From Hybos culiciformis (Eukaryota; Arthropoda; Insecta; Diptera; Hybotidae), in the NCBI GenBank assembly GCA_964007475.1, contig OZ023273.1, forward strand, positions 9,021,740 through 9,085,739: a stretch of 64,000 bases of DNA. The letters are read 5' to 3'. The notes under the pieces are model-generated. The model was not told where the DNA came from and did no database searches. It saw nothing but the letters and a program-made list of their open reading frames with translations. Within the stretch, counting starts at the first letter, position 1; each line of letters begins with the position of its first letter. Positions 2,030 through 36,265 of this stretch are shown here, in pieces. Position numbers and translations under genes: made by a program.

Positions 2030-3527
2030 TTAATTAAAAAAAAAAATTTAAATTAAGTAATAATTTATGAGTAAAAAATTAGGTTTCACAGTAAAATTTT
2101 AAATGATAGAATTAAGTATAATTTTAATTACTTTAGAAGTAATCTTTTGTGAAAGGTATACGTTTTTTACTATTTGCACAGTATATTAGGTTATATTATA
2201 ATTTTTATATTGATTGAAAATAGTAACATACTAATATAAATTAAAGTTCATTAAAGATATTTTATTTACTTTTTTAATAAAGTTTTAATTTCTGGAAAGA
2301 AACTGGAAATTCTACAAAGAAACTAAGTGTAAGTTTTCTTATATTAAAAAATAGTATTTAATATGAAATTGAAAATTTTTAAAAATCTAACATTAGAAGT
2401 CAAAATAATTAATTAAAACATTAAATAATGTCATATATAAATATATATTAAAAACAAATGTATTTTTAAACTTAAAATATATAGTGACTGTTGAGCTTAA
2501 TATTCTAAAATTATCAAAATATATGTATATTTAATTTTAAATCATTTAATTGCATTTATATAGTGAATTACAGTCCTATACATATTTAACAAAAGGAGTT
2601 AAATAGTGATTGGATATACATGAACACGACACGTGAAAGCTATCAACAGAATGGTACATAGTGTATAATAAAGTACGTGTAGTAATATTATTTAATTTTA
2701 TCACATAATTTTATTTTGAGTATATAGTATAATTTTTTATTAGCTATATAAATTTCTAATCTCTTATTTGCACAAAAAATTAATTTAATCTTTTTATAAT
2801 AGTTACACTATACTTTATTTTAAGTTGCAGCCACTCTTAAAATTCAGAAATATTTTCCACTTTTCAGAACACTCGAAATTAGCCGACACATACCTAGTTG
2901 TTATTTTATTTTATTTATATATTACTTCTTTCATATATTTGAATTGTAATTAACTTTAATTTAATTTATTACTCAAAAAAAAAAGTTGAACTTAATTGTA
3001 GTTTTATTTCTTTGAGCGGATAATAGAATTTTCACTTTTTATTTATGAGTTCGTTCGTTGTTTTTATATACCTACGTTAAGTAACCTTTATATGAATATA
3101 ATCATTGCATGTTATCAAGCTGACTTCAAAGCGACCCCAAGCCGATCAGTTGTTAATTTTTGTTGCTAATTCAAGAAATTTGTTTCCTAAAAATATGCCT
3201 TTTTATTCAATAACCGCGACGTGATGTGCGACATGTATATTATATAAACATTTTGCTATGATTTGTTCTTTTACTCTTAAAAAGACGCACAAAAAATTAC
3301 AAAAAAAAATAATTAAAAAATTTAATAGTATGTACACTCCATACTATGAAAAACGAACCAGCAGGTATATCATTTATTTCTTCCAATTTGTTTAATTTTT
3401 TTCAGCATAACCGACGGAATAGCTTGTTAAAAAAATTTATGAAAATGATTGTATGAGTGCAATGCCCAGCCTGCCTAAATAAATCTTACAGTGCACTACT
3501 ATATATTCTATATTAGTTTATGATTTA
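2030..3527. other. AT-rich non-coding sequence
   Basis: Nothing recognisable between the TIR element and the LINE remnant. Confidence 0.6.
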
Positions 3528-4314
3528 ATGTCAACTTTTGATCCCCAATTTTCTTTCCAAGGAGAAAGTATTGGCAAATCTGGAAACCTTGACATTTTAG
3601 GCTCGAAAATAACTTTAGATTTGAGCTGGAAACTTCATATTTTCGAAACGGCAAAAAACGCAGCGAAATGTCTCGGTTTCCTTAAAAGATGTAAACAATA
3701 CTTTTCCCCCTCTGATCTCTTGAACATTTATAAATCCTACATACGACCGAAATTAGAATATAATTCACATATATGGGCTGGAGCTCCAAAAACCCACCTT
3801 GAGTACCTGGACAAAGTTGAGAGAAGGGCTATTAGATTGATAAACAATCACCAAACCACCAGCTCATTGACATCACTCAATCACCGTCGCAATGTAGGTT
3901 CACTTTCCATTTTTTATAAATAACTTGTTGGAATGGATACGTGTTCCCTGGAAGTAAAAGCCCTACTTCCTTCACTTCAAGTATTTTCACGTCAAACACG
4001 TACCGCCTCAACGTCACACCCATATTCCGTCAAAATTCCCAGATGTGATAGAACGAGCTTCGGAGATTCGTTTTCAGTTCGCACCTCGAAAATGTGGAAT
4101 GCTCTCCCATCAAAATTGTTCCCGACAGCTGGCGGACGTTTGATTTACGACTTGCGCCGCTTTAAGAAGAGTTTAAATGATTACCTCCTAACTGTCCCAC
4201 TTTATAATCCCGTCTAAACTTCCTGTCCCCATTACCAAATCCATACTTCTCTAAGTATAAAAGGTATCCCACCTAGTGATTTGGTAACTTTAATAAAAAA
4301 AAAAAAAAAAAAAA
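3528..4314 (+). mobile_element. 5'-truncated non-LTR retrotransposon (LINE), end of reverse transcriptase plus poly(A) tail
   Basis: An open frame from 3528 to 4217, interrupted by one in-frame TAA at 3921-3923, encodes the C-terminal part of a LINE reverse transcriptase. Recognisable blocks are AAKCLGFLKRCKQYFSPSDL, IYKSYIRPKLEYNSHIWAGA, LDKVERRAIRLI and, near the end, SFSVRTSKMWNALPSKLFP with LRRFKKSLNDYLL. These are typical of the Jockey/CR1 group. The catalytic YxDD region and the endonuclease are missing. A short 3' UTR follows and ends in a 20-base A tract at 4295-4314, as in an integrated LINE copy in plus orientation. Its GC content is well above the neighbourhood, suggesting a fairly recent insertion; the single stop makes it dead. 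The 5' junction and target duplication are not clear. Confidence 0.85.
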
Positions 4315-7300: not shown

Positions 7301-10040
7301 TATATATTATTTTAAGGATATTTTTGGTGCATAATTTCAATCGTTTCTTATTTTATGAGTTACGTTACTTGAATGCATGATATAATTTTATTTTTATTTT
7401 TTATTTTTTGCGATTTTTGCTTTTACTTTATCTCCTTTGCTTTTGGATGCTTTTATTTTTTTTTTGCTTCTGGTGCATCATAAGTAAAATATCCTGAAAA
7501 GTATTCTTAGATGCAAACTGGAATGCAACTGTTTTTCGTTTATCGTTCAAAACTCATAAAAACTATGAAAAAGAATAAAAAATATATAATATATTATAAT
7601 ATATATATTTTTTTTTTTATTTAAATATAACTAAACTACATATAAACATAATATTGTATATACACATACATACATGCATATTTTCTGGTAGCATTATATC
7701 GAAATTTATTTATTTCTTTTTTTTTTTTGCTGCTGTAATAAAAAAGCTATAAATTCATATCCATCCATCCATCATTTATTTAAAAAAAAAAATAAAATTG
7801 TGTATTGAAGGACAATTTTATATTATATTAAAAGAAAACTTATAGAAAATATACATCAGAAAATGAGAAGTATATATAATTTCATATAAACATATATATA
7901 TAGATATGTATTGTACATAAATGTAATATTTTATAATTTTTAGGGAGTTTTTCTTTTGTTACCCATTAAATAATATGAGCTGCAATCATTTCCGTTATCG
8001 TTATAGTTCAGGAAATTTAAGCTAGAAATTTAGTCTATACACAGTCTTGCAACAAACAAAATATTTTTTCCAAAACGTAAAATGAAATTTATCTATGGGC
8101 ACACTTTACTATATTTATGTTTTTGTATATATACAAAGTAATGTACGTATGTGTTATGTGTTTTGTTTGTCAATTATTACATATCTTATTTCATATTTTT
8201 CAATCTTTATTACACTTTGACAATTTATTAAAATCAATAAATCGATTGAAAGTTTTTGATGGAAAACTACTACACAAAATACAAGTGAATTATTGAAGCA
8301 GTTTAATTACAAATTAATGTAACTTCATATTTTCAATGACTTAGTGTCGTTGATACGAGAATCCAAGATGTTCTATTTAGAAGTTACGGCTACTAATTAA
8401 CTTTATTTTGTTGGTCTCAAAACAGTATAAGCTGCTAATTCTGACAGCACTTTAAATTAGAAATTTTTTTTAAAATCTTTTACACATATGTCAAACACCA
8501 TATTATTACCGTACTTAAAATTTTGTCAATTGGTCATTAAAAAAAAATCGTCATTATCAACATCTTATTAAATATTCAAAAAAAAAATAAATAAAATTAT
8601 CAAGTACTTAAAAGATACTACGGCAATGTACAGTAAAATTATTTACGTGGCTATATAAATTTTGATCGCCTATCGACCGTAAGTTATGACATTTCAGTAT
8701 AGCTTATTAGATACTTAAAATATTTTTCAACAGAAATCTATAAACTGGTGTATAAAATATTGAGATCATAAAACTTTTCCGAATTTTTGGTTACTTTTAT
8801 TTCGCACAGTGATTCAAAAATAATAGTATTATTCATTTTTTTTTTTTTTTGTTTTTTATAAAACAATCTTAAAATCATTCAACCGTGCACACTTAAATTT
8901 TAGAATTTATATGCAGACTATTTTCTTTCATTTAATGTTCCAAGAAGCATTAAAGAATTATATAGCGCTTTTTTCTTGATGAAACACATTAAAAAAAAAA
9001 CAAAAAAAAAAAAAACGGCCGTAAAAACTTTTAAGGATTTTAAATTTTTGAATCGAATTAAAATTCAATGATATATAATTTTATGTTTGAACAAATTTAG
9101 CACAGGACAATTTAGTACAATTTTGTACAGAATTTGAGTAAATTTTAGTATTTTATTTGAAGACTTATACGGAGAATTTTTTTTTACTTTTTTAATATAC
9201 TATAATTGATTAATATATTATTTAATTAAAAGTTTGTATGAATTGGAGAAATTAATAATGAAACCGCATAACCCATAATATCTGTGATACATCGCCACAT
9301 TTTAATATTCAGAATTTTCGAAAAAATTTTCTTACTTTCAGAATGAGGAAAAATATTTATTTCATTTATAAAAATTATAATCTCTATGGTTTTCCGTAAC
9401 AAAATAAAAAGAAACTTCAATTTATTTTGTTATTTTTGTTCGTACATTTTATAAAACAAGAAATGGAAAAGGATCAAAATTTTTTATTACCCTAAATAAA
9501 CTATAAACCACAAATGAAAATTTTTTTTTCTATATAATGTTTTTGATAAATACATATGTTTATTTATTATAATAAAAGATAGTTCAAATTATTCAAAACG
9601 TACAATGAATGCGCAAGAGGTATAAGAGAGTTGGGAATAAAGTTTATCCACGAAACTTTTTAGATGTTATGTTTTCTATTTTATGGTTTTGAAAGTACTA
9701 AAATTACGAAAATACGAGATAAAATATTTAATTGAATGAATTTTTTGTTATTCAAGTTATTTATTTTTTATTATTTTTTTTTGAGAATTTAAGGATACCT
9801 AAATTTTGCATTAATTTTTTTTTTGTTTTAGTTTTAAAGATCTGTGAAATAATAAAATTAAATAAATTGCATTTGGCTAAGTAATAAGTTTATAATATGG
9901 ATAGAGAGAGAGAACTTGAATAAATTAATAATTATTTCTTTAAGTAAAAACGAAAAAACATTATATTTTCCTACAATATATATTTAGTAAATATATATTG
10001 TATAATATGTTAGCTTGATAATAAATTATAATATGCGAAA

Positions 10041-10172
10041 GAATGTTTCTTTTCCATATGGAATTAGAAGTTATATGATCCTTAAAATTGAATTTCATTA
10101 TTTTTAAAGAATGTTTCTTTTCTATATAGAATTAGAAGTTATATGATCCTTAAAATTGAATTTCATTATTTT
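10041..10172. repeat. two-copy tandem duplication, 68-bp period
   Basis: Two nearly identical copies begin GAATGTTTCTTTT at 10041 and 10109 and run to TTTCATTATTTT. They differ at two positions in the middle (CCATATGG against CTATATAG). A simple local duplication, no coding meaning. Confidence 0.9.
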
Positions 10173-12927: not shown

Positions 12928-13238
12928 CTATGTTGAAACACCAGCTGCATTTGAAGATAAACTACTGGATGGTCTAGACGGGCTTGACGGCCTTGTTGGT
13001 ATAGTTTCAGGTGATGGCACTCTTATCGATGTCGATGATGTTGTTATTGATGATGCTGATGCACCGTTTACACCTGATAACGACATACTAGACAAATTTA
13101 AATGTGAATATGGTAAATATGTAGGTGGAGAATTAACTGCAGCTACCGCTTGTTGATAATAGTAATAAGGCGACACAAAGACACGTGGATAGGTCATAAA
13201 ATTTTGCAGTGTCAACATAGCTTCTAATATACTTTGAG
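12928..13238 (-). CDS. dsx: doublesex male-specific exon M, C-terminal end of Dsx-M
   Basis: Male-specific terminal coding exon. The acceptor ATATTTTTAG precedes CTCAAAG, and joining to A or A' (GAA G|CT) keeps the frame: AQSILEAMLTLQNFMTYP followed by RVFVSPYYYYQQAVAAVN, then SPPTYLPYSHL. The block YYYYQQAVAAVNSPPTYLPY lines up with YYNYYTPMALVNGAPMYLTY in Drosophila Dsx-M. The last half is low-complexity Ser/Thr/Pro, typical of the disordered male tail, and ends AGVST before TAG. The tail is 102 residues, shorter than Drosophila's. Codon use is clearly more GC-rich than its surroundings. The first ATG of the open frame (13216-13218) is internal to the exon and not a start. A further male 3' UTR exon, as in Drosophila, could lie below 12928 but cannot be identified. 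Confidence 0.88.
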
Positions 13239-21163: not shown

Positions 21164-21307
21164 CTTCTTCAATTTCTCTAGAAGCCTTATCAAAATCACC
21201 ATCAGCATATTTTACTATCACATACATAAGTCGCATCACTTTCCAAGGATAACGAAATTTTTCCATTAACTTTTGACAGTATTCAAAAAGAAGCTCTGTT
21301 TTACCAC
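21164..21307 (-). CDS. dsx: duplicated doublesex OD2 exon A'
   Basis: A second, diverged copy of the dimerization exon. It is exactly as long as exon A (144 nt), has the same phase at both ends, no stop, an acceptor TTATTTTAG before GTGGTAAAA and a consensus donor GAAG before GTGAGT. The frame reads GKTELLFEYCQKLMEKFRYP, then WKVMRLMYVIVKYADGDFDK, then ASREIEEG. Against exon A, 30 of 47 residues are identical, and EYCQKL, EKFRYPW, LMYVI and KAS/EAS are kept. Notable changes are MPLMY to MRLMY, LKDA to VKYA, and E to K at WE/WK. Open frame, preserved phase and good splice sites argue for a working exon, not a relic. It lies downstream of F and upstream of M, so it can enter a male-type transcript but not one ending at F. 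Because both copies are multiples of three, A and A' could also be spliced together in frame. Confidence 0.87.
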
Positions 21308-22623
21308 CTAAAATAAAAGCATAATCTATTAATTATTATAATAAGTATAAAAATAATTAAAACAAAAATATCATGACAAGAAAATATCATCTGCATTATC
21401 AGAGAAGAATCATCTGTCCTAAATCGTTAAAAATATCACATAACCTATAATTATATATATTATTTGCTTTTAAGTATATTTTTCATTATTATTTTCTTGT
21501 ATTTTTTTTTAATAACGGAAGGAAAATGATAAAAATAAATTTAAGGAAATTTTTTAAAGTAATATTTGTGTAAAAATGAAAGTTTTTTTTCTTTATTTCT
21601 ATTTTAATTTAAAATCAGTTTTGAAAAATTATTTCTTAATTTAACTATAAACATTTTTTTGTTTTGCAGTTAATTTTAATAATAATTAATTTATATTATA
21701 GGCAGGTTTTTAATTAATAAAAAAATTTTAGAATAATATTATAAATTATTTTATTATTTATTTCTCAGTTATAGTTCGAATAACTTCAAATATGTATTTA
21801 TAATTTAATTTAATTTAAAAAAAATAATAATAAAATGGATGTTTGCGTTATAGTGTAATTATTAATAATTTTCACAGAAAAATTTACTTTTAATTTAAAA
21901 TAGAGATTATTGGGAACAGAAGTACCTATGTGATGTGTCAATAAGCATTTATAATAATATTTATAAAAAAATGAATAAGCGCTAGTTTTCTAATCTAATG
22001 TTATTAACAAAGTCTGAAACTAAAAAAATGATTTTGAAATGCGCAAAGAAATATTATGACACAATATCATCATTTACACTGTACGTATCTAAAAAAAAAT
22101 AAAACTTTAAGCATAATAATAATGGAACTCAATAAACGATTCGATTCGGAATACGTTTAATATGCACCAGAATGCAAAACATTTTATTTAAAAAATTATT
22201 TTCAATTATTGATTAATAATGATTTATAAAGTTAAATTTATTTTTGTTCTATGAACTTTCTAAATAAATAAATCAAAATTATATTGAAGTTTATGTAGTT
22301 AAAAAAAAATTGGTTTATACTATAATATACTGTATATTGTATATAGTTCAACATCATATACATAGATAGTATAAACACAGATATACAGATTTTATATGAA
22401 CACTTACCCTTAAAATAATAATTAAAATTAATTGATATTATTCCATAATTCAATTTAAAAAAAAAATTCTTTAATTAAAATTTAAAAAGAATATAATAAT
22501 TATCCATTTAAGAAAATATATAACATTATTTTAATGTGATTTATTTATAAACAAATCAATTTTGAAGAAATAGCAAATTTACAAATTATGATTTTTTGTT
22601 TTTTAAAGTTTTATTTTTTCTTG
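21308..22623 (-). other. dsx sequence between the dsxRE cluster and A'
   Basis: About 1.3 kb of AT-rich sequence, intron of any transcript that uses A'. No further dsx repeat element or exon seen. Confidence 0.6.
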
Positions 22624-22872
22624 TGTTGAATGAAGAATTTAAACTCATGTTGATTGAAGAATTTCACTCCAGAATAATTAATGTTTATTTGTTTTCGCTG
22701 GTTGTATACATAATGATGAAGTTGTAAGCTTTGTTGATAGCAGAATTAAGTGTTGATTGATGTATTTTAAAATATATATATATTCGTCGAATTATTGTTC
22801 TGATCATATAAGACTTGAGACATTGTTTGTAATATTTATTGTTTGTTGATTGAAGATACTGGAGATTGAAGA
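22624..22872 (-). promoter_or_regulatory. cluster of six dsx repeat elements (Tra/Tra2 splicing enhancer)
   Basis: Six 13-nt elements in the dsx sense direction match the Drosophila dsxRE consensus TC(T/A)(T/A)CAATCAACA. Exact copies of TCTTCAATCAACA lie at 22844-22856 and 22648-22660. One-mismatch copies lie at 22751-22763 and 22624-22636. Two-mismatch copies lie at 22860-22872 and 22732-22744. In Drosophila the same number of repeats sits in the female exon, where they bind Tra, Tra2 and an SR protein to activate a weak female acceptor. Here they begin inside the candidate F' frame and continue past its stop, about 3.1 kb beyond exon F and 1.3 kb before exon A'. The clustering, single orientation and exact matches make chance unlikely. 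Which splice site they control is not evident from sequence. Confidence 0.85.
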
Positions 22873-22931
22873 AAATTTGTTAAAAATAATAATTGTTAGA
22901 TTTCTCTGCCGATCATAATGGCGCATAACCT
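22804..22931 (-). CDS. candidate second female-type exon F' of doublesex (diverged or decaying)
   Basis: A GC-richer patch that, read from a possible AG acceptor at 22932-22933, gives a phase-compatible frame (GAA G|AG) starting VMRHYDRQRNLTII and running 41 residues to a TGA. The start aligns without gaps to VVNEYSRQHNLNIF of exon F, with 7 of 14 residues identical (V, Y, RQ, NL, I). The conserved R, Q and L codons differ only at synonymous positions, suggesting past selection on protein. After that the similarity ends: there is no DGGELR or TTRQCG. The acceptor has no pyrimidine tract, and the exon runs straight into six dsx repeat elements, as a Tra-dependent female exon should. Two female-specific exons are known in Aedes and in Lepidoptera. 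It may be a live weak exon, a relic, or a chance match; only transcripts can decide. Confidence 0.42.
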
Positions 22932-25914
22932 CTTCATTGCAAATTTATTGTAAGATTTATCTTTATTGATGACTATTATATATTTAAATTATATACATTT
23001 ATTTTTTTTTTTTGAAAAGTATAATAATTATTGATAATAATTATTGAAAGCAATAATAATTATATTTTCTATTTTATAAATATTTTACAAATTTCTAATT
23101 AAAATGTTCCACATCAATTTTGTTGCTTTTGAGAAACAGAATGTAAGTTCATTAATTAGTGTTTATGTCGTTTTCATAATAATTATATATAACAATAATT
23201 ATATATAATTAAAGATTTCTATGCGTGTACCATTTACATATATTTACTAAATTTATTTAACATTTATAGCAAAAATATTATTTCTAATCGTTAAAAATAC
23301 CTATGTATGTCCCTCAACACTACTGTATTTTTTTTTTTACATAATAGTTGAAAGTACAATCATAAAGTTTATGGTATAATGAAGGAACTTGAATATTATT
23401 TAAATATTTTTAATATTGGTCCATTGTGTGGAAAACTGTAATTTTTATAATTATTATTGCGTAAATAATACAAAATTATTTTAAAACTAAATTTCGATGA
23501 TTAATAATCATTAAGTGTCAAACCCTTTAAATCTAGTGTTATAATAAAACTTATAAAATTATAGAAACCTTTATTAAAATATAAGGTTATTATTTATAAT
23601 GAGTTTCACCCTGAATGAAAAAAAAAAAGAAGCCATTAGGCAAAAATATGAGTCTACAATACTCTAAAACACTGCCTCAGTGTGAAAAATAATTTCAATA
23701 AACTACCCATGAGTTTCAAAATATATTCGATATTTGTTTTTGTTCGCAAATTTTTGAATTAATAAAAAATTTTTAATTTAATTTCTATATAACTTTTTGC
23801 ATTTCATTTTCGGTGGTTGGTAGAAATTTTTTAACTCTAAATATTTTAACAGTAACTAAATTAGATGGAATTTACTTAAATAAAATGGTAATATCAGATC
23901 TTAAAAACCATATTTCTTTGTACGTTCTTTTATGTTAAATATTTTAAACGTATTGTTTAGGTTGTTATTAGTTATTACTTATTAGGCTATCCATAAATAA
24001 AAAATAAGTTAAAAGTTCATACCAATAGTGCATCCAAAAAATGTATGTACTTTTCCTTTTGTTGAGAACAGAATAAATAGAGATATACGTATTGTATATT
24101 ATTTATTGTATATAATGTATGTTCCAAATTTTGTCAAGACAGTGCTCACAGCGCTAGATCAGGTATTTCAAAGATATATTGACGCATTTTCTACTTAAAA
24201 GAAACTTTTAATATAAAAAGAATCTTAAAATTATATTTGTTTTAATATTAATGGTGTTTATAATTTTGATAAAAGATTTATTTATTTTATAAAAGATAAA
24301 ATATATTTTTTTTCAAATGACATGATATGAAGACAAGGAATAGCATAATACCATAATAATAGTGTAATTAACACAAATTAACTCTAAACAATTTCAGATT
24401 GTTGCAACAGGAAAATTTAGTTAATTACAATGTATGCGATTTTTTTTCTCTGAAACACGATCTCTATGTATCTCTATTTATTTTGAACAGTATAGTTTTG
24501 GAAATATTAAGACAAAGAAAAGTTTGTCTTATTTATAAAAAAAATGTATTTGATCAGATAATAAGTGCTAAGAAATGTAGTTTGAAAGAACAGCTACCTC
24601 AATAACTTACTATTTACTTCTTAAAATTCCACAATTACAAACTATATATTTTAATAATACATTTTTTATTGCAAAACTAAAAATTTGCAAACAACAATCA
24701 TTATAAAAAAATCTTAAGTTTATTCTAATAATTAACTTTTATTTAATTTGTTTGTTTCTCAATAACAGTAGTGCTGATTTTCTTGCAACGCCCAAACAAC
24801 AAAATTTTTTTTTAAAATAATCTTCTAGCATTTATGAGCACCAAGTTTTCATATTCATGGCACTAGTTACAAGCACAACTTTCAGAAAAATTTTAATATT
24901 TTCGCATTCTATTAATTTCAGCAAAATAATTAATTTAAATTTTGTATTTAATAATAAAATAAATATGAACTGGAATGAAGGAATTCAAGGAATAAATTAA
25001 TATTTTATTACATATATAAAAATTATTTAATTCTTTTACGTTTGAAAAATTCTCGGTGGTTTCTGTTTTTAAGTTCCAAAAACTTTCAAATTATCTGAAA
25101 CTAATATTTTGCCTCGACTCGAACTAGAAATAAACCTAAATTTTTTAATTATTTAAATTGAAATTGAATTGAATTGAAGTCTTATTTGCACGGTTTATTT
25201 ATTTGATTTTAAAACACAAAACTTAAAGTTTCTTGCTTAACTATCTTATTCATTCCACTGTCAATATATTTCAAATTTTCTGATAACGTTATAGAAACAT
25301 AAACTATAAGTTCACGTTTACTTCTGATAGTGTGCTTACTACATTATAATTTTCTCAAAATATTTTACTGTTTTGGCATAATTTTTTTTTTTTTATAAAA
25401 TTAGATAAAAACTACATTCAATAAATATTAGCAACAAAATTTACACGAGTTTGTAATAATTTTTAATTTTTATAAATAAAAAATTTTACATATAGGTATA
25501 TATATAAATTACACTGTATAATTTGTATGTATAAAAAAATTTAATTTTATCTATTTTTTTTTTTTTCTAACTTAAAAATACGCAAATTTTCATATAAATA
25601 AAAATTCACAGATTCGAATATAAATTTTATGATTTTTTATTTTTATTATTTTTTTTTTCTTTTTAATATTTAATTTTTTTTATTTTTTCAACATACATAT
25701 GTTTTCAAAAATTATCAATTTATATGTAAATTTAATAATAAAATATACAATTTAATTTAAATTATTATATATGAAAAAAAAATAATATTTATTATTCTTT
25801 TTTTATGTACTTCATTTTATTGTTTTTTATTATGTATTTATATATTTACGTTAAGTTAATTTTAATAATTTTTAATTTTTGTAAATAAAAAGAGAAAAAT
25901 ATAATAGTGATTTA
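22932..25914 (-). other. female exon 3' UTR and/or intron
   Basis: About 3 kb following the F stop codon. It starts with an extremely T- and A-rich stretch and holds no dsx repeat element and no exon. Either it is a long female 3' UTR that reaches the dsxRE cluster, or the female transcript ends early and this is intron for other isoforms. Confidence 0.5.
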
Positions 25915-26438: not shown

Positions 26439-26582
26439 CTTCGTCAATCCTTCGTGAGGCCTCATCAATATCTGCTCTAGCATCTTTTAATATCACATAC
26501 ATAAGTGGCATCATTTCCCAAGGATAACGAAATTTTTCTAATAATTTTTGACAATACTCTAAAAGGACTTCTGCATTCTGAC
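26439..26582 (-). CDS. dsx: doublesex common exon A (OD2 dimerization domain)
   Basis: Internal coding exon of doublesex, the DM-family transcription factor at the bottom of the insect sex-determination cascade. It encodes the OD2 oligomerization domain, a UBA-like helical fold through which Dsx dimerizes and to which the sex-specific tail is attached. The frame reads QNAEVLLEYCQKLLEKFRYP, then WEMMPLMYVILKDARADIDE, then ASRRIDEG. I recognise YPWEMMPLMYVILKDA and EASRRI as hallmark motifs of insect Dsx. In the sense direction the acceptor is TTATTACAG before GTCAGAATG and the donor is GACGAAG before GTATAAAG. The exon is 144 nt, starts with two nucleotides of a split codon and ends with one. 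Exon F lies 432 bp downstream. The preceding exon is not in the window. The domain call is very secure; exact ends rest on GT/AG rules and phase. Confidence 0.94.
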
Positions 26583-29500
26583 CTGTAATAAGACAAAAAA
26601 TTAAATTCAATTTAAAATTAAAACCATAAACGTAAATAAGATTAAATTAATAAAAACTTTGACACAATCTCATTTGTTATTATATATTTTGTTTCAAGTT
26701 TCGCAATATTGGTGTCTGGTGTGTAAATGAAATAGAATTCATTATTAGAAAATGTATTACTATAATTATCTGAAAACAATTTAACAATATACTATTATTA
26801 TATGTAATTTATAATTGAATAGTTTTATACGTTTTTCAGATATATAATTAGTTCTGAAATTCCCATTAAAAAAAAATGGACTTAAAATAACATTAACAAT
26901 TACATAAATATTTATACTTAAAATTAAAAAATAGTAGTATTAGAGCAAAATAAATAGTTCAAGATATTTTATTATATGACATAGAAATAATAAGAAATCT
27001 AATAAATATTGCTATAAAATGTTGCAGCGCTGACTCGAATGGGCTATTAAGACAAGTCGAGGTTCGAGGACTCCGGTTAGGGAACTATATAGCAAATTTT
27101 CAAAATTTTGATTTCATAGCAACGTTTTGATATTATTGTAAGTTCGGCACTACCTTGTGAAACCGTCTAATCTCGTTTCAATAAAATAGCAATATACTGA
27201 TTCATTATTTTATTTGTAATCCAAAATTATATGGAATATATTAAAACTTATGTATTTGTTATATTACACTGAAAAAATTGATAGCATCCGCAACTTAAAT
27301 TTCTGTAAAGCCCTCGCTAAATCGAACTTGTGGATGATTTTAGCAAGATTAGTTATTTATCATAGCTCTTACTAATTTGAGTTTTTATAATTTTTTATAA
27401 TTTGACTAATTATAATTTTGGTGTAATCTTTGCTACAATTTCAGCACACACTGCCACAGGGCTGTGGAGTCGGTCAACAAAATTACCGACTCCAACTCCG
27501 ACTCCTCGTTTTTTTCTTTGGCGACTCCGACTCCGACTCCTACTTTGATTACTTGGACTCTCTGTCTGATACCAATGTACTATACTTTCTGTACCCCCAC
27601 CAGCAATTATAAAAAATAGTATTTCCCGAAATTGCCATAAATTTTAATATGAACATTAAAGAGTATTTCCCGTAATTTTCGCAGTAAGCCAAAAATTGTG
27701 ATAATATATTTTTATTGGATTTCTGTGCCAGACACTTGGTGTTGCTTTGTTAAATTTAATTATAAAAATATAATTATTAAAATGTTTTATTTAATTTAAT
27801 AAGTTTTGGTCGAGTATACTTTAAATTTAATAGTTTTGGAGTCGGAGTCGGCTATATTATACTCCGACTCCGACACTTAACAAGCAAAAATTCACTTAAC
27901 AATAATAAAATTAATGTCTATCTCTTTCCCAACTTTTCCTGGTAATGAAGTTATTATACAAAAACTAAGGTTAGTTTAACTTGACACTTTTTCTGATTGT
28001 TGTAAAAATAAATGCTGAATTTAAATCAAAAATTGTCTGATACGGATTTTAATTCTTAACAAATCTGCAACTTTATTCAATTTGTGGTGTCTCACTCTTA
28101 GGGGCCCGAAAATTATTAAGCTTCAGGTCGAAAAAAATTATTGAGTCACCCGCTGGTTATTCAGTTTTGTAAAACTGTATATTATAGATTATGAATTTTC
28201 TGAATCAAAATGAATTTTTTCTATATATATAGTAAGAAAAATAATTTTTCGATTTTAACAGAAATTTTAGAATTAATTATTTGTTTTATCTTCAAGATTT
28301 CGCGAGAAAAAACTTCCCCATTTTTAAGACTTATCTTATTTCGTCTTCAACAAAAATATTATATAATATTTCTATGTGTGTATACATAGTATTTCTTTTA
28401 TTTTTATCATTTAAATAACATATACCACCGAATTATTTATATGAGCTATTTAGGTTTTTTTTTGCTTATTTTAATTTATTTTTAAAGAATTAAAAAGCAA
28501 AATGGCATAAAAGAAAACATTTTTTTTTGAGCAAAAAATAAAAAAAAAAAAAATACTGCAGTTGTGGAAAAAAAATTTATATATTATAACAACTATAAAA
28601 GCATGAAACATTTAAAATGCATAAAAAATATATAAAAAGGAAAAAAAAAAAAAACTTCTCTGTGTTTAAATAGTTATGCGCTTTGTGAACATTAAAAAGA
28701 ACTGGCACCTAGAAAATCCATTAAAATGAACTTTTTTTGTTATAAATTTTTGTGCCTGAATAAAATTTTCTTTTCTTTTTTTTTCGTTTTCTTTTTGTTT
28801 ATTTTTATTTTTTTTTTGTGTTTTAAGAAGGCGGAGCTTTGAAGTCATTGGTTGAGACTGTAATAACCCTCCTTTTATTATGTTTGTGTTTTTATTATTA
28901 TTATTATTAGTGTTGTGTTTTTTTGCCGCTTTAATGGAAATTGGTATTTTTTTTTTTAATACACTGGAAGTTTTTAACAGCAGAAAAAAAAAAAATCCAC
29001 ATGATAAAAAAGACCTTCGAGAAAATGTTGTTAATAATAATAATAATATTTTCATAAAATAAAACGATGGCATACGAAAAAAAAATTAAACAAAATATAA
29101 ACAAGCTTTTTCCCATTTGTTTTTATTATTTTTATTCATATAGTATAAAAAGTGGTGATTATTCAATTTATATACATATATGTATAATTTTTCTTTTTTG
29201 TATAGTGTTTAAATGCGTGTTAAAAATTTGTTTAATAAATGAATATTATGATTGGATTTTTTTTTTTGGGACATTTAACAAGTAGCCTGAAAATGAGCAA
29301 AATTATGATTAATTTATTAATAAAATAAATATTAGTTTTCTTTTTCTGGTAAGAGGTTGAAATAATTGTGTTTCTCATTGCCTTGAGGCATATTCGTGTG
29401 TGTAAAACAAAAAGGTATATGTAAATACAAGTGAATACAAGGATTGGAAAATAAAAAAGGAATAATAATATAAATTTATATTAAGTTGTCAATTAGTTAT

Positions 29501-31094: not shown

Positions 31095-31207
31095 GAGCCG
31101 TTTATTTTTAAAGTGGTTTAAGTCCATTTTTCAAAAAAAAAATAGTTAAGGATAACAATAAGCACAATAGTATATTTTCTTTTTATTTATAAACAATTTT
31201 AGTGTAG

Positions 31208-31682
31208 ATTTTTAATTAACGTCTGTGTTTTTTTATTAATATCTTTTTGAATATTTGCGATCGATTATACAGACATGATTTTTAAGTAGTTGGTGAAGTA
31301 AACTGAAAATTTTATTTTTAATATTTTATCTAGGAAACTTTAATTTTTGAAAATTACTGAATTATTAAATTGTTTCGTCCTGGTATCAAGCTTAGGACTC
31401 ATCAGAATGATTTACTTGATACCTATCATTTACAATTCTAGAGATGAATGTTATACAATTTATTTTTTATTTAAATTGCATGAAGATTTTTTATTTTTGG
31501 TTCTGTGAGGTTTTATTTATGGATATAAATTGAATATCAAATTCCTCATATATTAATTGTATTATTAACTTTATGAATTTCTGAAATCTCTATTCAATTA
31601 TTATTTTTTTGTTAAATTTCTTATTTTTATTTCTCCTATTCTAATCTTGAGTGGTATTATTGCGTTTCAATTTCCGACAAAT
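31208..31682 (-). repeat. inverted arm of the 675-bp unit
   Basis: This 475-bp stretch is the reverse complement of unit sequence found, for example, from 31997 onward and across the next unit boundary (TTTGTCGGAAATTGAAACG reads inverted at 31663-31681). The turning point to the forward array is at about 31681-31683. The RNA or single strand could fold into a long hairpin. Confidence 0.9.
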
Positions 31683-34459
31683 TAAAAATAAAATTTTCAG
31701 TTTACTTCACCAACTACTTAAAAATCATGTCTGTATAATCGATCGCAAATATTCAAAAAGATATTAATAAAAAAACACAGACGTTAATTAAAAATCAATA
31801 ATTTGTGGACGTAGATCGGGAATGGTCCAAATTTGGTAATTTTCTTAACTTCAATAAAAAGTTCATTTCTGGGTGGTAATGCGAAAAAAGAAATTCCTGA
31901 CAATCTTCCAATTATGTGAGCATAATAATATTTCATAACATAGACTCAAAACCTAGAGTCAACCTTTGAAATTTATAAAAAAGTTCTCATATGGCATTTG
32001 TCGGAAATTGAAACGCAATAATACCACTCAAGATTAGAATAGGAGAAATAAAAATAAGAAATTTAACAAAAAAATAATAATTGAATAGAGATTTCAGAAA
32101 TTCATAAAGTTAATAATACAATTAATATATGAGGAATTTGATATTCAATTTATATCCATAAATAAAACCTCACAGAACCAAAAATAAAAAATCTTCATGC
32201 AATTTAAATAAAAAATAAATTGTATAACATTCATCTCTAGAATTGTAAATGATAGGTATCAAGTAAATCATTCTGATGAGTCCTAAGCTTGATACCAGGA
32301 CGAAACAATTTAATAATTCAGTAATTTTCAAAAATTAAAGTTTCCTAGATAAAATATTAAAAATAAAATTTTCAGTTTACTTCACCAACTACTTAAAAAT
32401 CATGTCTGTATAATCGATCGCAAATATTCAAAAAGATATTAATAAAAAAACACAGACGTTAATTAAAAATCAATAATTTGTGGACGTAGATCGGGAATGG
32501 TCCAAATTTGGTAATTTTCTTAACTTCAATAAAAAGTTCATTTCTGGGTGGTAATGCGAAAAAAGAAATTCCTGACAATCTTCCAATTATGTGAGCATAA
32601 TAATATTTCATAACATAGACTCAAAACCTAGAGTCAACCTTTGAAATTTATAAAAAAGTTCTCATATGGCATTTGTCGGAAATTGAAACGCAATAATACC
32701 ACTCAAGATTAGAATAGGAGAAATAAAAATAAGAAATTTAACAAAAAAATAATAATTGAATAGAGATTTCAGAAATTCATAAAGTTAATAATACAATTAA
32801 TATATGAGGAATTTGATATTCAATTTATATCCATAAATAAAACCTCACAGAACCAAAAATAAAAAATCTTCATGCAATTTAAATAAAAAATAAATTGTAT
32901 AACATTCATCTCTAGAATTGTAAATGATAGGTATCAAGTAAATCATTCTGATGAGTCCTAAGCTTGATACCAGGACGAAACAATTTAATAATTCAGTAAT
33001 TTTCAAAAATTAAAGTTTCCTAGATAAAATATTAAAAATAAAATTTTCAGTTTACTTCACCAACTACTTAAAAATCATGTCTGTATAATCGATCGCAAAT
33101 ATTCAAAAAGATATTAATAAAAAAACACAGACGTTAATTAAAAATCAATAATTTGTGGACGTAGATCGGGAATGGTCCAAATTTGGTAATTTTCTTAACT
33201 TCAATAAAAAGTTCATTTCTGGGTGGTAATGCGAAAAAAGAAATTCCTGACAATCTTCCAATTATGTGAGCATAATAATATTTCATAACATAGACTCAAA
33301 ACCTAGAGTCAACCTTTGAAATTTATAAAAAAGTTCTCATATGGCATTTGTCGGAAATTGAAACGCAATAATACCACTCAAGATTAGAATAGGAGAAATA
33401 AAAATAAGAAATTTAACAAAAAAATAATAATTGAATAGAGATTTCAGAAATTCATAAAGTTAATAATACAATTAATATATGAGGAATTTGATATTCAATT
33501 TATATCCATAAATAAAACCTCACAGAACCAAAAATAAAAAATCTTCATGCAATTTAAATAAAAAATAAATTGTATAACATTCATCTCTAGAATTGTAAAT
33601 GATAGGTATCAAGTAAATCATTCTGATGAGTCCTAAGCTTGATACCAGGACGAAACAATTTAATAATTCAGTAATTTTCAAAAATTAAAGTTTCCTAGAT
33701 AAAATATTAAAAATAAAATTTTCAGTTTACTTCACCAACTACTTAAAAATCATGTCTGTATAATCGATCGCAAATATTCAAAAAGATATTAATAAAAAAA
33801 CACAGACGTTAATTAAAAATCAATAATTTGTGGACGTAGATCGGGAATGGTCCAAATTTGGTAATTTTCTTAACTTCAATAAAAAGTTCATTTCTGGGTG
33901 GTAATGCGAAAAAAGAAATTCCTGACAATCTTCCAATTATGTGAGCATAATAATATTTCATAACATAGACTCAAAACCTAGAGTCAACCTTTGAAATTTA
34001 TAAAAAAGTTCTCATATGGCATTTGTCGGAAATTGAAACGCAATAATACCACTCAAGATTAGAATAGGAGAAATAAAAATAAGAAATTTAACAAAAAAAT
34101 AATAATTGAATAGAGATTTCAGAAATTCATAAAGTTAATAATACAATTAATATATGAGGAATTTGATATTCAATTTATATCCATAAATAAAACCTCACAG
34201 AACCAAAAATAAAAAATCTTCATGCAATTTAAATAAAAAATAAATTGTATAACATTCATCTCTAGAATTGTAAATGATAGGTATCAAGTAAATCATTCTG
34301 ATGAGTCCTAAGCTTGATACCAGGACGAAACAATTTAATAATTCAGTAATTTTCAAAAATTAAAGTTTCCTAGATAAAATATTAAAAATAAAATTTTCAG
34401 TTTACTTCACCAACTACTTAAAAATCATGTCTGTATAATCGATCGCAAATATTCAAAAA
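31208..34459. repeat. 675-bp tandem array with head-to-head inverted arm
   Basis: The word TTCAGTTTACTTCACCAAC starts at 31696, 32371, 33046, 33721 and 34396, exactly 675 bp apart each time. By eye the units are identical, so the amplification is recent or homogenised. Forward units run from about 31681 to 34459 (four full units and a short fifth). The left arm, 31208-31682, is the reverse complement of about 0.7 unit, so the array starts with a large inverted repeat. The unit holds no open frame of 60 codons. AATTTTAGTGTAG flanks the whole block on both sides (31195-31207 and 34460-34472), which looks like a 13-bp target duplication. It lies in the large intron upstream of dsx exon A. Confidence 0.93.
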
Positions 34460-36265
34460 AATTTTAGTGTAGTATCATTAAAACCGCTTTGATTTTGACA
34501 CTTGAAAATTAGCTTATGGAAACATTAATGTATATTTTTAAATCAATTCAAACACAAAACCTTAAATATCTCAATACAAGAACAAATGGACTTAAACCAC
34601 TTTCAAAATAAACGGCTCATTTAATTTAATTTAATTCAATGTGATATTGTACCTTCTATCAATAAATCTGCACCAGTGTTTCCATTACTAATAGTTATCT
34701 TATACATTGATCTCAACTGTGGCAAACGATAAATATTTTTTTTTGTATTTCCTCGTTATGAATTTGGTGCCCGGATTCTTGGTAGCTAAATAGTTTTTTA
34801 AATTCTTACAATCGACCCTTACCCACACACCAAATATCATCGAAAATCCTTTTTTATCCCGGATGCCTTCCTTTAATTGAACAACTTATAATACATATAT
34901 ACCTATTTTAATCGAAATAAAATTTCAACTATTAGTCTACAATTGAGGGCTAAATAATTTGTCTAGGTACAATCAACATTTTCCAAAATACCTATTTTCA
35001 CCGAAATCCGTCGACCTTAGCTTAGATATTATCGAAGGTTTAAAATATGTTTTAAAAAAATCGGAATCTATTAATACTCTTCAGTCTTATTAATTTATTT
35101 TATTAAAAATCACAGATATTAATGCGAATAAAATTCTTAATAAATATTAACATTTAAATTATTTGATATTGCAATTCTGTGATTATGTAAAACTTATATC
35201 TAATTATCAATACATTCTAATAAGTCATTATTCAAGTATACATATAAATGTTTATACGCATATTATCTTTTTTAATTTAAAATTTTGTGTTCACATTTTT
35301 GGATTTTAGTGTATTTTCATCGCACGAGGTGACATTTCAAAATAAAACAAATCAATCTTGATATAATATAGAAATTAATGATTTAATATATTTTTGCTTT
35401 CATTTGACAATAGCTCACCGAATATTAATTCAGATTTTAAATTCCTTCAGGCGAATTCAGAATTTATAAGCTAATTTGGCAAAGTTTCCCTGTGTATAGC
35501 AATTTAACAATTTCTTATTATATTAATTCAAGTAACGATAAATGAAAACTTAAAGGAAAATTTCAAATGATTATAAACGTCTTCGTGAATTTAAAATTTC
35601 CAAGATATGTACACAAGAAAATTAAAAGACTGGGAAAAAGTTTCTTAATAATTTTATTACAACCATTACGTTTTTTTTTTTTTTGTAAAATTTTATCGCC
35701 CTTTCAAAGTAAACATTAAAATTGAAAAAGAAAAAAAAAATTTATAGCATTTTTATAACTTAAAATGAATATGCATAAGTTTTGGCCAAAAGCAGTCTTA
35801 TATTTTTACGATCATTCATTCTTTTTTCTCTTTGGAACTATTTTACAATTTCTATATTCAATCGGTAAAGAAAAGTAATAAAATTTTATAAATTTTATTT
35901 TTTAAAGTTGGCTTCTTTTTTTACTTAAGAATTCAGTTCCTTTTCCTTGAGAGCTTTGAAAGGAAAAAACAAAAAAAAATAATTATAATTTTTTATCGCA
36001 TTGTTATGACATCATCAATTTATGTCTTTATGAGAAAAAAATTCGATTTAGGTAGAATTTGTAGAACAAAATTCTTTGGAGTTTAGACATATACTTAGCA
36101 TCTAAATAAATTCATGTGTGGGAATAAGATATTCAGTCTGCTCTGAACAAACACTTTTAAAATAATTGAAATTAGTTTTTAAATTTAAGTTATACAAAAT
36201 TAAAAAAGTATCTGATAGCTTTTATTATATGTTTTGGATAAAGTTCAGTTGACTTGAACAATTGA

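Follow-up and report, generated by a model that had tools for sequence, protein, structure and literature searches.

A candidate alternative dimerization-domain exon in the doublesex gene of the fly Hybos culiciformis

The doublesex gene of the hybotid fly Hybos culiciformis contains, in addition to its canonical exon for the OD2 dimerization domain (exon A), a second exon of the same kind (exon A') located between the female-type exon and the candidate male exon. It is highly probable, judging from sequence comparison, that A' has been kept by selection as a coding exon. Our best explanation, to which we give about an even chance, is that A' is a genuine duplicate of exon A, has been retained by selection and serves as an alternative OD2 exon for male-type Dsx. 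The window, that is, the whole stretch of DNA analysed here (64,000 nucleotides, without any N), covers 9.02-9.09 Mb of a 152,394,966-base contig; the published description of the assembly gives chromosome 1 as 152.39 Mb with 25% GC, in a total of 342.56 Mb and 568 scaffolds (PMC12744202, in excerpt). The gene lies on the minus strand of the window, and its elements follow each other in the order DM exon (outside the window), A, F, TRA/TRA-2-like cluster, A' and M:

C1:9123266-9123974, minus strand: DM (OD1) exon, outside the window, with a GTAAGT donor at its end; joins A or A' in frame
26439..26582, minus strand: exon A, the canonical OD2 exon, 144 nt, donor AAG|gtataa
25915..26006, minus strand: coding part of the female-type exon F; A+F matches Drosophila Dsx 2jz1 over 75 residues
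22624..22972, minus strand: cluster of eight 13-mers resembling TRA/TRA-2 binding sites, between F and A' (two exact, two with one mismatch, four with two mismatches)
22402..22410, minus strand: candidate splice donor AGG|GTAAGT (8/9), GT at 22407, which may terminate a long F exon or else a second female exon
21164..21307, minus strand: exon A', the second OD2 (DSX_dimer) exon, 144 nt, acceptor ...tgcttttattttag, donor AAG|gtgagt
12928..13238, minus strand: coding part of the candidate male exon M, so assigned by frame, splice site and position; in frame with A and A'

The two OD2 exons share their reading pattern (2 nt, 47 codons and 1 nt, flanked by AG and GT), and each is free of stops in the gene frame, several being present in the other two frames. 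They are identical at 111 of 144 nucleotides (77%) and at 30 of 47 residues, FRYPW and LMYVI included, and A' has no indel relative to A. The coordinates, length, phase, splice-site layout, openness and residue conservation that the initial annotation had given for A' were reproduced exactly, and the dN/dS comparison of the two exons that it had proposed yields dN 0.219 and dS 0.631 by NG86 (omega ~0.35), and dN 0.164 and dS 0.451 by LWL85. The 33 nucleotide differences are distributed as 13, 5 and 15 over the first, second and third codon positions, leaving 23 codons identical, 7 with silent differences and 17 with residue changes. The GC content of A' is 0.326 against 0.212 in the intron, a level attained by 1.7% of intron windows. 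The openness of A' taken alone says little, because on the gene strand 333 intron windows of 141 nt, out of 12068 overlapping ones, are likewise open.

Both exons match the Pfam profile DSX_dimer (PF08828, cut-off 23.9 bits), A with 108.4 bits and A' with 75.4 bits (E 2.5e-21), and both match the solved Drosophila Dsx domain 1zv1 in phmmer (E 2.3e-21 for A, 2.1e-15 for A'), a homology that rules out a chance open frame. A profile search of the genome (342.37 Mb in 509 contigs, match counts being lower bounds) returned A and A' as the sole DSX_dimer matches at E <= 0.001 from 4 candidates scored, and DM matches in at least four places from 13 scored, one of them on this locus (C1:9123720-9123857). 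Since both DSX_dimer matches and one of the four genomic DM matches fall here, a whole-gene paralogue is not supported. We judge an assembly or haplotype duplicate unlikely, given the 77% identity, the position of F between the copies and the absence of N in the window. Joint duplication of A and F as a block was likewise rejected; tblastn of F in the window matched F itself (E 1e-18) and otherwise nothing better than E 0.34.

By their frame and splice sites, the DM exon and the pair A/A' would belong to the same gene. Three hallmarks of insect Dsx are present at the locus, namely a DM exon, an OD2 and a female exon that continues OD2 to the end of 2jz1. The combination DM-A-F gives a 314-residue protein matching Drosophila Dsx 1lpv over 52 residues and 2jz1 over 75, the female tail included; DM-A-F, DM-A-M, DM-A'-M and DM-A-A'-M are each open up to the final stop. 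Exon M has no Pfam match, and neither has the open frame at 28669-29085 on the minus strand. F precedes A' and is closed by a stop codon, so that transcripts starting with the DM exon can use A' as coding sequence only if F is skipped; a start between F and A' would be the exception. The initial annotation described A' correctly, but did not draw this main consequence of the order A-F-A'-M. Skipping of F is the male-type default mode in the flies described in PMC6593557 and PMC3045327 (in excerpt). A' could also form an untranslated part of female messages, provided that F behaves as a cassette in the way described for mosquitoes and sand flies.

Several repeats were observed in the window. 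Between the DM exon and A, the intron houses copies of a 675-nt unit (31207-34466); four agree completely over 300 nt, another agrees at 98% over 86 nt, and all five are at 675-nt spacing, with an inverted 476-nt part at the start of the array. At 10038-10172 a 68-nt unit is present in two tandem copies with 97% matches, and a 146-aa open frame on the plus strand (3483-3923) resembles by eye the end of a LINE reverse transcriptase and has no Pfam match.

Does the preservation of A' exceed what neutral decay would leave? Comparison of the 2.1-kb stretches around A and A' by blastn gives one strong in-register match, which consists of the exon plus 8 and 2 nt (E 8e-31); the other matches are many, short and out of register, the best with E 2.6e-5. 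The 200-nt flanks of the two exons are similar at z values of 0.3 and 0.96 relative to shuffles and of 0.53 and 0.84 relative to random window segments. For the 60 nt before the exons z is 0.33 relative to shuffles but 2.13 relative to random window segments, and for the 60 nt after them 1.09 and 1.45. Flanks simulated with a divergence of 0.14 per branch retain a mean z of 14.8 (40 runs at each divergence); at 0.3 per branch the mean is 5.1 with 1 run of 40 (2.5%) at or below 1, and at 0.5 it is 0.67 with 24 of 40 (60%) at or below 1. The neutral divergence is therefore probably nearer to 0.5 per branch if the duplication carried flanks of ~200 nt, since the argument presupposes that about this length of intron was copied on each side of the exon. 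Under neutral decay at 0.5 per branch, 2.9% of 4000 simulated exons stay open, and the share that is open and also keeps at least 30 of 47 residues comes out as 0.000; the latter share is 0.093 at 0.2 and 0.011 at 0.3 per branch.

A second series of simulations was conditioned on 31-35 nucleotide differences, with an omega of 0.06 for A; an omega of 0.06 has been obtained for tephritid OD2 (PMC3302808, in excerpt). Of 696 accepted runs with a neutral A', a fraction of 0.0244 keep the exon open with no more than 17 amino acid changes. With an omega of 0.3 for A' this outcome is reached in 87% of 1909 runs, and with an omega of 0.06, 17 changes arise in 0 of 641 runs. All simulations took the present A as the ancestor and intron base composition, assumed a kappa of 2.5 and allowed no indels in the exon. 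A neutral A' is thus disfavoured by this one genome, the conditional test taken alone being modest (0.024), and A' is clearly less constrained than A. The earlier proposal of an intact OD2 exon duplicate under some selection is in this way backed at the level of sequence by homology, open frame, donor, lost flanks and the neutral simulations.

The relaxed constraint is visible in the predicted protein. At 11 of the 44 compared positions A agrees with Drosophila and A' differs, and the changes at such positions include E22K, P25R, D33Y, E40K and R44E. The net charge is -3 for A and 0 for A', a shift by which A' could change the pairing strength or the partner choice of male-type Dsx. AlphaFold models of the two domains have three helices each at near-equal places, with middling confidence (pLDDT 69, from two sequences); in structure retrieval with these middling-confidence models, 1zv1 was retrieved by the model of A and not by that of A'. 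The alternative dimerization surface that had been suggested for A' is plausible.

What could govern the inclusion of A'? The gene strand of the window contains 2659 GTs, and of these the A' donor, AAG|GTGAGT, alone agrees with MAG|GTRAGT at 9/9; 10 others reach 8/9, and the donor of exon A scores 6/9. The acceptor tract of A' is ordinary, as 26% of AGs have an equal number of pyrimidines upstream. The pyrimidine tract of the F acceptor looks strong (14/16); the female acceptor of Drosophila is weak. A search of both window strands for the 13-mer TCWWCRATCAACA, at most two mismatches being allowed, gave 25 sites against 19.9 expected, and this total is unremarkable because 13 of 100 shuffles reach it. 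On the gene strand, 8 of 14 sites, two of the eight overlapping, fall inside 22624-22972 (Poisson p 6e-16 relative to the rest of the strand, for a 500-nt stretch picked post hoc). From the F acceptor to the cluster the distance is ~3.0-3.4 kb in the 3' direction, and from the cluster to A' it is a further 1.3-1.7 kb; the Drosophila TRA/TRA-2 cluster is much nearer to the female acceptor. In Hybos the cluster may control a splice site other than the F acceptor. The donor at 22407, the sole one of at least 8/9 within the scanned 25914-21401, would fit a 3.6-kb F cassette and equally a second female exon of the kind described for Aedes doublesex (PMC3045327, in excerpt). The role of TRA/TRA-2 clusters in flies is covered in PMC3045327 and PMC6593557 (in excerpt).

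We hypothesize that where F is skipped, the upstream exon would be spliced to A' instead of A in some tissues or stages, and that the DsxM encoded by the resulting transcript would have a variant of the three-helix domain; the alternative product would be DM-A-A'-M, which carries two domains. The repeat cluster before A' would be the place at which TRA/TRA-2 promotes F in females, and A' would then be either absent or untranslated 3' of the F stop. Whether A' replaces A in male-type transcripts seems to us evenly balanced. Exclusive use of one or the other is not forced by the sequence; A and A' together stay in frame. A full split of OD2 by sex, with A and F in females, A' and M in males and each sex having a pairing module of its own, is a tentative idea that we consider rather unlikely. 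If it were true, the charge changes of A' could bias male Dsx against pairing with A-type Dsx, and the male domain could thereby be freed from the constraint common to females.

Joint inclusion of A and A' deserves to be weighed as an explanation in itself, as DM-A-A'-M would place two OD2 domains in male-type Dsx and alter the size of the oligomer rather than swap its surface. The exon length of 144 nt is divisible by three, the phases match, the combined frame is open to the final stop (436 letters with the stop), and A' has a strong donor and a usable acceptor, all of which accords with a tandem arrangement. Adjacent copies of a dimerization domain might, however, pair inside one chain, and no such protein is found in titles or abstract openings among the open-licence matches listed; we regard this arrangement as unlikely. 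The raised amino acid change in A' allows a different reading, in which the exon is unused or cryptic, having been functional till recently and now decaying. The 11 of 44 positions at which A alone keeps the Drosophila residue agree with this, as does an amount of change that fits an omega of 0.3 and not 0.06, and the second OD2 copies of beetles have been judged probably untranslated (PMC4538375, in excerpt). Yet A' is without a stop or indel and retains a perfect donor and an intact frame, while its flanks show no detectable similarity to those of A, which makes recent decay improbable.

The importance of A' could also reside in the RNA, with the encoded peptide being incidental. A' would then be a 3' UTR exon of female transcripts, in which the F cassette is spliced on to M, and would tune their stability or splicing. 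A precedent is found in mosquitoes and sand flies, where the male exon is the 3' UTR of female mRNA (PMC6593557, in excerpt), and such a cassette is compatible with the 8/9 donor, which follows the TRA/TRA-2-like cluster at ~220 nt and precedes A' by 1.1 kb. The coding signatures of A' argue in the opposite direction: the frame is retained, only 5 of the 33 differences are at the second codon position, and the DSX_dimer score is far above the cut-off. We consider a role mainly as RNA very improbable.

A selectively retained OD2 exon for male-type Dsx would be of consequence for the evolution of the gene. In the fly genes described in PMC6593557 and PMC3302808 (in excerpt) the OD2 exon is common to both sexes, and changes in OD2 consequently touch male and female Dsx at once. 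With an intact second OD2 exon 3' of F, male-type Dsx could be exposed to selection by itself, and A' would be a natural test of the part that the dimerization domain plays in sex-specific gene control. It also bears on the question whether the second OD2 copies of beetles are relics of once-working alternative exons.

The initial annotation took known dsx genes to have one OD2 exon, which is incomplete: OD2 duplication as a kind of event is already published, although the beetle copies were read as probably untranslated (PMC4538375, in excerpt). According to that source, Price et al. (2015), Gyrinus and Onthophagus carry the additional OD2 downstream and in another frame, Meligethes carries one that is also downstream and overlaps the first, and in Meloe the extra copy follows a stop; the authors suggest that the duplicates are not translated. 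Hybos A' resembles these copies in lying downstream of the first OD2, in or beside the dsx transcript, and differs from them in that it forms an exon of its own, in frame and with a splice site at either end. The excerpts of PMC4461909, PMC7257214, PMC3045327, PMC6593557 and PMC3302808 make no mention of such an exon, and among the open-licence matches listed, titles and abstract openings contain no intact, separately spliced, in-frame second OD2 exon and no dsx study of hybotids or their kin. The excerpt of PMC4538375 further notes evidence that dsx has been duplicated in the fly Belgica antarctica, and whole-gene duplicates or paralogues of dsx in Zygentoma, Zoraptera and Daphnia, which likewise place a diverged second OD2 in the genome. 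In Hybos, by contrast, both DSX_dimer matches are in one gene, and one of the four DM matches is located here.

Relative to the canonical doublesex of Diptera (Drosophila, sand flies, mosquitoes), with its four-exon layout (PMC6593557, in excerpt), Hybos has the same OD1, OD2, female and male exons and TRA/TRA-2-type sites. It departs from this arrangement in that an additional OD2 exon, in frame, stands between F and M, and in the distance of its TRA/TRA-2-like cluster from the F acceptor. A further comparison is offered by Dscam, in which duplicated exons are mutually exclusive. Like exons of the Dscam type, A and A' are homologous, of the same length and phase, and provided with homologous splice sites within one gene; unlike them, they jointly keep the frame and are separated by the female-type exon.
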